This document shows positions 1 through 32,844 of a DNA stretch of 32,844 nt, one piece after another. A program made the position numbers and the translations under genes. Source of the stretch: an uncultured Spirochaetales bacterium (GTDB taxonomy: Bacteria > Spirochaetota > Spirochaetia > Sphaerochaetales > Sphaerochaetaceae). The first letter of the stretch is position 1, and every line of letters starts with the position of its first letter. The DNA lies in NCBI GenBank assembly GCA_949297785.1, contig CASFTW010000019.1, positions 1 through 32,844 on the forward strand, given 5' to 3'. The notes below the pieces were generated by a model. The model was not told where the DNA came from and did not search any database. It worked only from the letters and a program-made list of their open reading frames with translations.

Positions 1-99
1 GCGGTGGCCGCATATAAGAACAGTGAGACAGGAGAAAGGAAAATGAGCTCGATATGGAAAGAAGTGGAAGATGAAGGTATTGCGAAAGGAAAATCTGAA
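1..99 (+). repeat. 99-bp terminal repeat, left copy
   Basis: Bases 1-99 are identical to the reverse complement of 32746-32844; the first difference is at base 100, where this copy has an extra 12-bp stretch compared with the right copy. The repeat covers the middle of an Rpn-family C-terminal coding segment. Both window ends therefore lie inside the same dispersed sequence, pointing inward. Confidence 0.95.
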
Positions 100-225
100 A
101 GATCATCTGAAGTCGCAAGGAATCTGCTTGTGAAAAACAAAATGAGTGAAGCGGAAATAGCTGAAGTGACCGATCTCTCCCTTGAGGAAATCGGCAAAAT
201 AAAATCTCAGATGAAGATGTGCTGA
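1..225 (+). CDS. Rpn-family (PD-(D/E)XK nuclease/transposase) C-terminal tail, 5'-partial
   Basis: The reading frame is open to the window edge and stops at 225. The protein segment matches the C-terminal tail typical of Rpn recombination-promoting nucleases (PD-(D/E)XK transposase family): a short linker, an acidic helix with WKEVEDEGIAKG, then ARNLL and an 'aEIAevTdLSleEI' helix-turn pair. The nuclease domain is not present and would lie outside the window. An internal ATG at 43 is preceded by AGGAG at 30-34 (8-nt spacing), so a 60-residue small protein could be made independently. In E. coli RpnA such an in-gene small protein (RpnS) inhibits the long nuclease. Related copies lie at 425-613 and 32632-32844. 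Family call is by pattern recognition; whether this is the tail of a full gene or a solo cassette cannot be decided here. Confidence 0.7.
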   Translation, partial: AVAAYKNSETGERKMSSIWKEVEDEGIAKGKSERSSEVARNLLVKNKMSEAEIAEVTDLSLEEIGKIKSQMKMC

Positions 226-424
226 AAGAGATTGTTTCAGCAAAAGAGAAAAGTCACTTTATTCATTTATGAACACTTCAAACATGTGATTCATCTTTTA
301 TCATATGATGGTAAGCAAGTTGAAATTTTTCTCCTGCTTGCCATTATGGTTCCTTGCTATTGTTGTAATGAATTGAAAGAAGCAGTCGCTACATATTAGA
401 ACAGTAAGAAAGGAGAAATGAAAA

Positions 425-613
425 ATGAGTTCAATATGGAAAGAAGTGGAAGAGGAAGGTATTGCAAAAGGTATCGTACAAGGCAAACTTGAACGATCAT
501 CTGAAATTGCAAGGAATCTGCTTATTCAGAAGATACTGAGTACAGAAGAGATCGCTGAAGTCGCAGGGCTGTCACTTGATAACGTCAGGGAAATAGCAGA
601 CGGGCTTTGCTAG
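425..613 (+). CDS. Solo Rpn-type C-terminal small protein (RpnS-like) or gene remnant
   Basis: A 62-residue protein starts with the same MSSIWKEVE segment as the tails at 1-225 and 32632-32844 and ends with the same ARNLL and EIAEVAGLSL helices. Upstream bases 385-424 are homologous to the segment before the internal ATG of copy 1, but here they contain an in-frame stop (TAG after the CATAT equivalent) and a frame change, so no longer Rpn protein can be read through. A good ribosome binding site remains (AAAGGAG at about 410-416, 8-9 nt before the ATG at 425). It is either a decayed tandem copy of an Rpn 3' end or a functional stand-alone small protein. No nuclease domain is nearby. Confidence 0.55.
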   Translation: MSSIWKEVEEEGIAKGIVQGKLERSSEIARNLLIQKILSTEEIAEVAGLSLDNVREIADGLC

Positions 614-736: not shown

Positions 737-1798
737 TCAGATTCCGTATTCCGCAAGTTCATCTTCACTGATGTCATACCCGTAGAAGAGAGAGTAGAAC
801 CGCTCAGCTTCAGCCCTGACATCTACACCGGTCTGACTGCCGTAGAAAACACCGGCTGCCCACCATATCCCGATAAGACGGTTGATTGAAGGAGGGGAGT
901 CGATCCAGTTGTTTATCACTGCAGGTACAAGATATACCCTGCCGTTCTTTACGGCATCAAGGCTCTGCCATGAAGAATCCTCTGCCGTGACTGTCCTGAA
1001 TGCATTCTCGTCTGACAGGATGATCACATCAGGATTCCAGAGGAAAAGCTGCTCAAGACTTATGGCATTGCCGCCGGATGAGAATGTAGAGGGGACCACA
1101 TTCACACCTCCCACAGCTTCAAGCACTTCACCGTGGAAGTTGCCGGAAGGAATCGCCTCGAGCCCGTCAACAGATGAAGAATAGTAGAACGTGACTGTAC
1201 CGCCGAGAGCTTTTTTTGTATCTTCAGCAAAGGCAACTGCCTCTTCGGCGTATGATGCCAGCTCATTTCCTCTCTCCTCATCACCCAGCAGTTCGCCCAG
1301 TCTTGTGTAAGTGTGGGCACTGTCAGCAAGATATGATTCAATGAACACCACCGGGATTCCTATCTGTTCCTGCAGGACATCAAGATCTGAGATCATCTCA
1401 TCGACTGATCCTTTTATCTCTCCGATATCGATGACAACGTCGGGATTGACGACGATCAGAGCTTCCTTGTTGAGGTTCGCCTTCTTTCCGTAGAAAGTCC
1501 CGAGGACTGGAATGTCTTCACGGAGATCAGGGTAGTAAGCTCTTTCCTCATCGCTCATCGCTGTTGTCAGTCCGCTGATCTTTGACTGGTCGAATGTAAG
1601 GAGTATGACCTGTGCCATCGAGCCGCTCGGTGTGACTGAGCTTATATCAGAAGGGACGTCCACAACACGACCAAGATCATCTGTGAAACTCACCATCTGC
1701 CTTTCGCTGGCAGCAGTGGTATTCTCGGTGTTTCCATGCGCACTGAGGTACATAAGGGAAGTGAATAGAATCAATAGCACTGTAAGTGTTTTTTTCAT
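737..1798 (-). CDS. ABC transporter substrate-binding protein (metal-chelate/corrinoid type)
   Basis: 353 residues. It is the periplasmic binding component of an iron-chelate/heme/cobalamin type ABC importer (periplasmic-binding family 2, helical-backbone fold). An N-terminal signal peptide is visible (KK, then a hydrophobic stretch to about residue 20, ending SAHG); there is no lipobox cysteine. After the signal the typical 'VSFTDDLGRVVDVP' opening strand is seen, followed by two lobes with 'NPDVVIDIG' and 'NPDVIILSD', both characteristic of this family. Its start codon overlaps the end of the methyltransferase gene by 4 nt, and it is the last gene of a four-gene operon reading 4273 to 737. 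The ligand cannot be told from sequence; no binding residues were recognised. Confidence 0.9.
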   Translation of the reverse strand: MKKTLTVLLILFTSLMYLSAHGNTENTTAASERQMVSFTDDLGRVVDVPSDISSVTPSGSMAQVILLTFDQSKISGLTTAMSDEERAYYPDLREDIPVLGTFYGKKANLNKEALIVVNPDVVIDIGEIKGSVDEMISDLDVLQEQIGIPVVFIESYLADSAHTYTRLGELLGDEERGNELASYAEEAVAFAEDTKKALGGTVTFYYSSSVDGLEAIPSGNFHGEVLEAVGGVNVVPSTFSSGGNAISLEQLFLWNPDVIILSDENAFRTVTAEDSSWQSLDAVKNGRVYLVPAVINNWIDSPPSINRLIGIWWAAGVFYGSQTGVDVRAEAERFYSLFYGYDISEDELAEYGI

Positions 1799-27213: not shown

Positions 27214-27242
27214 TTGATTTTTTGTTTTCCAGATCTTATTAT
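27214..27242 (+). promoter_or_regulatory. Promoter of antisense RNA, module 1
   Basis: TTGATT (27214-27219) and TATTAT (27237-27242), spacer 17 bp. The same elements recur at 27633-27662 in module 2. The upstream stretch 26961-27213 is AT-rich with no gene or structure that I can support. Confidence 0.7.
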
Positions 27243-27248
27243 TCAGAT

Positions 27249-27334
27249 AGAAAGAGTCGCCAGCAAGACGGTGACCTCAGTATAAGGATTATATCCCCGC
27301 TACTTTTGGGTTTGACGGCGGGGATGTTTTATAT
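27249..27334 (+). ncRNA. Putative antitoxin RNA, module 1
   Basis: A predicted transcript of about 85 nt starts near 27249 and ends at a terminator (ATCCCCGC 27293-27300, GCGGGGAT 27318-27325, then GTTTTATAT). Its 5' half forms a hairpin, GTCGCC-loop-GGTGAC, conserved in module 2 with an A to G change that preserves pairing. The RNA is complementary to the last dozen codons and stop of the peptide gene 27300-27407, and to the sequence after it. This is the layout of an antisense antitoxin. Function is inferred. Confidence 0.55.
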
Positions 27335-27407
27335 CCTTTATAAGGCCAAGAAGTTCACGAAGAATCCTTAGAAGTAGGAGAGCAAGCTCTAGTACTATTT
27401 TAAACAT
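27300..27407 (-). CDS. Small hydrophobic peptide, candidate type I toxin, module 1
   Basis: 35 residues, too short for most gene callers. A Lys-bearing start (MFKIVLELAL) leads into a Leu-rich amphipathic helix with LLLLRILRELL and GLIKDIK, then a basic tail HPRRQTQK. The start is the second of two ATGs; GGAGG (27416-27420) is 8 nt upstream of it and only 2 nt from the first (27413). The peptide at 27730-27834 is a paralogue. Over 27 aligned codons from VLE to PRR about nine differ synonymously and four change the residue, which indicates selection on protein. Small, helical, basic-ended peptides opposed by an antisense RNA are typical membrane-active type I toxins; the family itself I do not recognise. 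Confidence 0.7.
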   Translation of the reverse strand: MFKIVLELALLLLRILRELLGLIKDIKHPRRQTQK

Positions 27408-27415
27408 ATCCATCA

Positions 27416-27444
27416 CCTCCTTTTTCCCGCATGGGATTGGGAGG
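27416..27444 (-). promoter_or_regulatory. Leader structure hiding the ribosome binding site, module 1
   Basis: On the minus strand CCTCC (27440-27444) can pair with the Shine-Dalgarno GGAGG (27416-27420), with an inner TCCC-ATGC-GGGA stem. The block is nearly identical in module 2 (27843-27871). In module 1 an upstream GGGAGGAG can compete for the CCTCC, giving an alternative open form. Confidence 0.55.
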
Positions 27445-27499
27445 ACTCCTCCCGCGGGACGCAGGAGGCCACCGTCTCACATCTGCTGACGACCTGTGT

Positions 27500-27529
27500 A
27501 TCCTAGCAGATTAAGCGGTGAGTACGCAA
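27500..27529 (-). promoter_or_regulatory. Promoter of the module 1 peptide mRNA
   Basis: TTGCGT (27524-27529) and TAGGAT (27500-27505) on the minus strand, spacer 18 bp, giving an 86-nt leader. The first part of that leader repeats, in shortened similarity, the hairpin found at the start of the antisense RNA (GTCGTCAGCA and GACGGTGGCCTC). Confidence 0.6.
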
Positions 27530-27542
27530 GCTTATTTTTCCA

Positions 27543-27600
27543 TTAAATTACTGATTTTATGTGTTATAAGACGTATAGATTATGAAAATCAGTAATTTAA
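27543..27600. repeat. Perfect 16-bp inverted repeat between the two modules
   Basis: TTAAATTACTGATTTT (27543-27558) and its exact reverse complement (27585-27600) surround a 26-nt loop. It separates the two peptide/RNA modules. No T-tract makes it an ordinary terminator. Confidence 0.85.
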
Positions 27601-27632
27601 GTACGGTATATAAATAAATTTAGAGAAAGTTG

Positions 27633-27662
27633 TTGATTTATTTGTTCTTAGGATTCTATTAT
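27633..27662 (+). promoter_or_regulatory. Promoter of antisense RNA, module 2
   Basis: TTGATT (27633-27638) and TATTAT (27657-27662), spacer 18 bp, same hexamers as module 1. Confidence 0.7.
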
Positions 27663-27668
27663 TCAGAT

Positions 27669-27757
27669 ATAAAGAGTCGCCAGCAAGACGGTGGCCTCTG
27701 GTTAATTTGAGTTTCCTCGCTTTATCCCGTTAGGCTTTAGGACGGCGAGGATTTTTT
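27669..27757 (+). ncRNA. Putative antitoxin RNA, module 2
   Basis: About 88 nt. It begins with the same AAAGAGTCGCCAGCAAGACG block as module 1, folding as GTCGCC/GGTGGC, and ends at a clear terminator: CCTCG (27715-27719), inner CCGT/ACGG, CGAGG (27746-27750), then ATTTTTTAT. It overlaps and is complementary to the 3' end of the peptide gene 27730-27834. Confidence 0.6.
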
Positions 27758-27834
27758 ATATCCTTTATCAGGCCGAGAACCTCTCTGGAAATTCTCAGAA
27801 GCATCAGAGCAAGCTCCAATACTGTTTTTACCAT
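27730..27834 (-). CDS. Small hydrophobic peptide, candidate type I toxin, module 2
   Basis: 34 residues, paralogous to 27300-27407. It starts MVKTVLELALMLLRI, continues GLIKDIK and ends NPRRPKA. GGAGG (27843-27847) is 8 nt before this ATG; an earlier in-frame ATG at 27840 is only 2 nt from it. The leader block that can hide the ribosome binding site is conserved. The mRNA promoter is less clear than in module 1; a box pair of the same type (TTGCGT, N18, TACGAT) lies far upstream at 28089-28118. Toxic membrane action is inferred from size, amphipathic helix and the opposing RNA. Confidence 0.7.
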   Translation of the reverse strand: MVKTVLELALMLLRISREVLGLIKDIKNPRRPKA

Positions 27835-27842
27835 AATCATCA

Positions 27843-27871
27843 CCTCCTTTTTCCCGCATGGGATTGGGAGG
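27843..27871 (-). promoter_or_regulatory. Leader structure hiding the ribosome binding site, module 2
   Basis: CCTCC (minus strand of 27867-27871) can pair with the Shine-Dalgarno GGAGG (minus strand of 27843-27847) around the TCCC-ATGC-GGGA stem. The block is conserved with module 1 although the sequence further upstream is not. Confidence 0.55.
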
Positions 27872-27879
27872 TCTTTTTC

Positions 27880-32631: not shown

Positions 32632-32844
32632 TCAGTTTGCAGTAAACTCTGCCTTGATCTTCATCACATCTTCAAGCGGAAGCTTTGTCACCTGCGCGAT
32701 TTTCTCATCACTCAGCAACTTTTCCGCAAGCAGGTTCCTTGCAACTTCAGATTTTCCTTTCGCAATACCTTCATCTTCCACTTCTTTCCATATCGAGCTC
32801 ATTTTCCTTTCTCCTGTCTCACTGTTCTTATATGCGGCCACCGC
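32632..32844 (-). CDS. Rpn-family C-terminal tail, 5'-partial (right end)
   Basis: The frame enters from the window edge and ends at 32632. The first 33 codons are identical at DNA level to the left-end copy; the rest (SEVARNLLAEKLLSDEKIAQ, then LPLEDVMKIKAEFTAN) is a diverged version of the same tail. An internal ATG at 32802 follows AGGAG by 8 nt, allowing a 56-residue small protein. As with the left copy, the nuclease domain would lie outside the window. Confidence 0.7.
   Translation of the reverse strand, partial: AVAAYKNSETGERKMSSIWKEVEDEGIAKGKSEVARNLLAEKLLSDEKIAQVTKLPLEDVMKIKAEFTAN
32746..32844 (-). repeat. 99-bp terminal repeat, right copy
   Basis: The reverse complement is identical to bases 1-99. 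See the left copy; identity ends exactly where the two Rpn tails diverge by a 12-bp indel. Confidence 0.95.

Follow-up and report, generated by a model that had tools for sequence, protein, structure and literature searches.

Rpn tails and contig ends

We analysed a window of 32,844 nt that spans all of contig C19 in a draft genome assigned to the Spirochaetales (G000; 2.22 Mb in 50 contigs), with the sister genome G001 as the reference for synteny and orthologue comparisons. Three stretches of the window encode the C-terminal tail of Rpn proteins: copy 1 at the contig start, copy 2 shortly downstream, and copy 3 at the contig end (Table 1). In all three, AGGAG precedes the in-frame ATG of the same MSSIW start by 8–9 nt, confirming the positions given in the initial annotation and its reading of these sequences as C-terminal Rpn tails that contain an internal start.

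Table 1. Coordinates of rpn tails and other features; positions refer to the window unless a contig is named
Feature	Position	Strand	Remarks
Contig-end overlap	1–99	+	exact reverse complement of 32746–32844
Copy 1, rpn 3' end cut by contig start	1–225	+	AGGAG 30–34; internal ATG 43; stop at 225
Conserved leader of copy 2	334–424	+	non-coding here; compared with G001
TAG closing the upstream frame of copy 2	397–399	+	AAG in the G001 orthologue
Putative ribosome-binding site of copy 2	411–415	+	AGGAG, 9 nt before ATG 425
Copy 2, solo rpnS-type gene	425–613	+	62 aa, MSSIWKEVEEEG...; sole true solo tail in the window
Neighbouring 353-aa ORF, synteny anchor	737–1798	-	same length at the G001 locus; dN 0.033, dS 0.30
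Small ORFs in tandem element	27300–27416 and 27730–27843	-	AGGAGG-led, ~35 aa, M..VLELAL.LLRI.RE.LGLIKDIK.PRR
Copy 3, rpn 3' end cut by contig end	32632–32844	-	AGGAG 32815–32811; ATG 32802
rpn 5' ends elsewhere in G000	C8:70884–70961, C9:4–54, C15:4–54		found by body search; C8 ends at 70961

The longest stretch common to both ends of the contig is exactly 99 nt and starts from the outermost base of each, suggesting that a short-read assembler entered a repeat from both sides. Since the ends are exact inverted copies over this length, neither copy 1 nor copy 3 counts as a solo gene; judged from sequence, they are in all likelihood the truncated 3' termini of two full-length rpn genes. The G001 locus syntenic with copy 1 (L041/L104) has a complete 290-aa rpn gene, and the gene is likewise complete at the locus syntenic with copy 3 (L044/L105), the 5' side of which lies at the end of contig C8. 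The PD-(D/E)XK bodies expected for copies 1 and 3 are absent from the G000 assembly and complete at these syntenic loci. Hence, of the three stand-alone tail genes described in the initial annotation, only copy 2 stands, the other two being excluded by the contig-end overlap and by the synteny of bodies and tails.

The G000 assembly contains five rpn tail matches, four of which lie at contig ends (the starts of C18 and C28 and both ends of C19); the sole internal match is copy 2. The initial annotation had suggested looking across the genome for full-length Rpn genes. A profile search of the assembly found no full-length Rpn above the TIGR01784 cut-off, formally the outcome that the initial annotation had named as refuting its proposal. 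With the rpn body of a relative as the query, we found three rpn 5' ends in G000, every one of them at a contig end. By synteny, C8 and the end of C19 flank G001 locus L044, C15 and C28 flank L040, the start of C19 follows L041, and C18 follows L042; for the 5' end on C9, no G001 locus could be assigned, there being no match over 300 nt. L040, L041, L042 and L044 all hold complete rpn genes of about 280–295 aa. The full-length G001 genes resemble known Rpn nucleases, with three of three scanned against NCBIfam passing the TIGR01784 cut-off and two of two scanned against Pfam passing that of PF12784 (PDDEXK_2). Taken together, the positions of these 5' ends and the completeness of the orthologues indicate that the absence of full-length Rpn from G000 is an assembly gap.

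Taken literally, the assembly would describe a genome that lacks full-length Rpn and in which all three tails are true solo genes, and the empty result above the TIGR01784 cut-off agrees with such a description. We consider it extremely improbable: the inverted contig ends overlap exactly, rpn 5' ends lie at other contig ends, and intact genes occupy the syntenic G001 loci, which together contradict three solo genes. Correcting this assembly artefact matters, as copies 1 and 3 could otherwise be read as free-standing antitoxin genes.

Within G001, the rpn genes of L042 and L044 share the same sequence for at least 700 nt from the 5' end and have different tails. Going by this pair, homogenisation seems to affect rpn bodies and to spare the variable tails, which would explain the assembly break: the assembler would have halted within rpn body sequence that hardly differs from one locus to another.

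Copy 2 and its conserved leader

Copy 2 starts 199 nt beyond the stop codon of copy 1 on the same strand. The claim that it can make the small protein only was upheld: the frame upstream of its start is closed by an in-frame TAG, and a 1-nt insertion near position 421 also shifts that frame relative to the G001 orthologue, in which it is open. At the place of copies 1 and 2, G001 (L041) has a complete rpn gene and an intact solo tail, which differs in length from copy 2 by an in-frame 12 nt that leaves the small frame intact. Copy 2 is homologous to the tail of a full-length rpn gene, lies directly downstream on the same strand, and has its own ribosome-binding site, start and open frame, all of which also characterise the E. 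coli gene ypaA. By sequence comparison, it is a real, separate downstream solo tail. Searched with the tails alone, TIGR01784 (NCBIfam) gave matches that were all under the curated cut-off, including that of copy 2 (E 3.1e-7), and Pfam gave no family, with a single weak match below its cut-off.

Against its G001 counterpart, the leader of copy 2 shows a single substitution over 90 aligned nt plus a 1-nt gap, and the start region of copy 2 differs at 2 of 47 positions. By contrast, the flanks differ by ~19% each (20/106 in the preceding spacer and 24/130 in the rest of the tail). A leader-like sequence, 94% identical, also precedes the solo tail of another G001 locus. The leader may contain a promoter, although a promoter consensus scan of positions 1–760 of the window found two sites versus 1.6 expected and lends this no support. 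Between copy 2 and its G001 orthologue, dN is 0.129 and dS is 0.279, with 16 of the 25 differences being non-synonymous, as compared with 0.033 and 0.30 for the neighbouring 353-aa ORF; the resulting dN/dS is only moderately low and not clearly distinct from neutral, and constraint on the protein is therefore weak.

An AlphaFold2 model of copy 2 (mean pLDDT 79, with low confidence over the first 20 residues) predicts a long helix at residues 4–35 and shorter helices at 40–47 and 51–61. In a second look by structure search, the E. coli small protein RpnA-S (PDB 7TH0) ranked third, with 46 of 46 residues aligned at an rmsd of 1.3 Å and a Z score of 6.6, tied with the Trp repressor; a match of this score between helical bundles may reflect a common arrangement only. 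RpnA-S was absent from the 50 Foldseek matches listed and from the list returned by a PDB sequence search with the tail profile, and a poor model of the full-length L041 protein (mean pLDDT 43) was left unused. The predicted fold of copy 2 fits an RpnS protein without proving that it is one. As with in-frame RpnS proteins such as RpnA-S, the tail encoded by copy 2 begins at an ATG preceded by a ribosome-binding site, contains four-residue repeats in helix 1, and is predicted to form three helices; unlike them, copy 2 lies outside any rpn gene and differs from its neighbour in repeat number.

We scored tail ORFs across the genus for the internal start, excluding L053, whose tail match was too weak, and found a ribosome-binding site and ATG in 61 of 69, related sequences being counted separately here as in the recurrence counts below. 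Removal of 16 ORFs with short windows left 53 with a nearly complete 52-codon window, and the site was present in 48 of these, as compared with 127 of 1105 windows of other long ORFs and 6 of 76 in rpn bodies. Synonymous recoding led to an expectation of 40.5 sites among 64, against 59 of 64 observed, indicating that much, but not all, of the start-site signal is dictated by the amino acids.

Recurrence of solo tails and their repeat numbers

Zhong et al. (2023; PMC10327210) described separately encoded RpnS genes downstream of rpn in E. coli (ypaA/rpnES and rpnCS), and among the papers listed by searches of open-licence PMC articles no other dealt with solo Rpn tails. That study reported that the downstream protein of rpnE-ypaA is produced and that RpnS blocks RpnL in E. 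coli, and according to its Figure 1 legend E. coli rpn genes contain a promoter and a start within the gene. For RpnC, adding one four-residue repeat abolished inhibition unless toxin and antitoxin both carried it (text and legend to Figure 4D), a matching-length rule demonstrated for a single E. coli Rpn; the main text leaves open the purpose of the solo RpnS genes (PMC10327210). Copy 2 is a further case of these already described downstream genes. Like YpaA/RpnES and downstream RpnCS, it is a small same-strand gene behind rpn, with a copy of the C-terminal tail and its own ribosome-binding site, and as at the E. coli rpnE-ypaA loci compared here its repeat number also differs from that of its neighbour. 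Unlike YpaA, where the copied stretch begins at the ribosome-binding site just past the stop codon, copy 2 has the 199 nt between stop and start; moreover, in this genus the copied stretch starts about 20 codons before the solo start, and two loci of genome G015 bear two solo tails.

Across the 16 genomes of the genus, we found 21 tandem tail pairs and analysed 17 of them; these came from 15 loci and 10 genomes (G000–G003, G006–G009, G011 and G015). Left out were L054, in which a long duplication extends into the body, the second pair of L060, which contains a decayed tail, L071, whose upstream tail is a 28-aa stub, and L084, which has no complete parent. Contig ends truncate the upstream gene at 6 of the 15 loci (L065, L069, L073, L082, L096 and the window). 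An in-frame stop lies within 35 codons upstream of the start in 11 of the 17 solos; their intact frames are partly selected for, since the survey found solos through open tail ORFs. These counts show that downstream rpnS genes like those published for E. coli also occur in a genus of the Spirochaetales.

The two-solo loci of G015, L094 and L095, each consist of rpn followed by two solo tails, and the bundle of the second solo is unlike the adjoining full-length tail. The third tail of L060 is a decayed solo, and the G000 locus on C18 that is syntenic with G001 L042 lacks the solo tail present there; by comparison of these sequences, solo tails come and go. At L040, the tail class of G001 differs from that of G000 (C28), and the helix stretch of copy 2 is closer to that of the full-length gene at its own syntenic G001 locus (L041) than to that of the solo tail there, suggesting that tails are exchanged among themselves.

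Four-residue repeats lie soon after the start of the tails and vary in number, such that alignment gaps come in steps of four residues. Copy 2 has one repeat (GIVQ) more than copy 1, making its helix four residues longer, and its bundle residues also differ from those of copy 1. The orthologous G001 pair is mismatched in the opposite direction, the solo being one repeat shorter than its neighbour. None of the 17 genus pairs analysed had the same helix length in solo and neighbour, and no equal lengths occurred in a hand-entered list of 14 either.

We made the same comparison in E. coli, for which we fetched 18 rpnE loci (K-12 and 17 from a spread of 40 of 5371 matching genomes). Seventeen were measured; the eighteenth has an incomplete rpn beside an insertion element. 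Lengths differed in 15 of 15 loci having both genes, representing eight distinct combinations, with no further combination contributed by the last four such loci added; in K-12, YpaA is one repeat (GKLE) longer than RpnE. When solos were shuffled among the eight combinations, zero matches arose half the time (P 0.50), and the absence of matches is thus not evidence of selection for mismatch. Length matching is not maintained, but the zero matches do not imply that matching is avoided. The two remaining measured loci, L117 and L118, lack a solo gene and fall outside the 15 counted; there RpnE ends in a YpaA-like sequence (SEADLAANNH), as if two tails had collapsed into one. Such rpnE/ypaA fusions are mentioned by Zhong et al. 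(PMC10327210).

Candidate roles of the solo tail gene

We favour, with a probability of roughly 0.7, an explanation in which copies 1 and 3 are cut ends of rpn genes and copy 2 is a separate RpnS-type gene encoding a non-cognate length variant. Copy 2 would be a duplicated rpn 3' end equipped with a leader and ribosome-binding site of its own, and its 62-aa product would fold into a long helix plus a small bundle of helices, dimerising as RpnA-S does. By analogy with E. coli, it would be part of an Rpn toxin-antitoxin locus in which the neighbouring rpn supplies its own matching RpnS from the internal start. Given the extra four-residue repeat in its helix, the copy 2 protein most likely does not block the neighbour. 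It would instead persist as a length variant, either as an antitoxin directed at other Rpn alleles or as a reservoir of tail sequence for recombination into rpn genes.

The initial annotation had raised the idea of a spare antitoxin. Applied to the neighbour, this would be an extra RpnS acting on the nuclease of its own locus by binding and blocking it. The arrangement is that of E. coli rpnE-ypaA, whose downstream protein is made, and RpnS does block RpnL there (PMC10327210). However, a cognate antitoxin of the adjacent RpnL would be expected to have the same repeat number, and copy 2 does not: the extra GIVQ and the altered bundle residues, taken with the published matching rule, drawn from the loss of inhibition after a one-repeat change in RpnC (PMC10327210), weaken the idea. 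The G001 pair is mismatched as well, in the opposite direction, and so is every genus pair and every two-gene E. coli locus that we compared. We therefore regard a spare antitoxin for the neighbour as improbable. A functionless leftover of duplication or tail replacement, decaying and with a frame open by chance or through recent origin, is somewhat less improbable, though still unlikely; random decay of solo tails is not the reading we favour. It would account for the weak protein constraint, the decayed solo tail at L060 and the G001 solo tail that is lacking in G000. It accords poorly with the leader and start being the best conserved sequences around copy 2, with the frame being broken before the start and open after it, and with the recurrence of the arrangement in most genomes of the genus and in E. 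coli.

Extending the preferred reading, a non-cognate length variant, from copy 2 to solo RpnS genes of the genus and E. coli as a set is a speculative step, which we consider less likely than not to hold. These genes might be kept with repeat lengths unlike that of the neighbouring RpnL, as antitoxins for other alleles, modulators that pair with the local RpnS, or donors for tail switching. If so, solo RpnS genes would not be second copies of the local antitoxin, and donor sequence could switch a tail together with its partner specificity. The consistent mismatch offers an inexpensive way of probing the function of solo RpnS genes.

Elsewhere in the window, two tandem copies of a separate element, 82% identical, occupy positions 27218–27874 in a stretch without long genes. 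Each contains one of the small ORFs listed in Table 1, for which Pfam gave no match, and each ORF adjoins a common block, AAGAGTCGCCAGCAAGACGGTG. These ORFs look like a small type I toxin-like gene pair.
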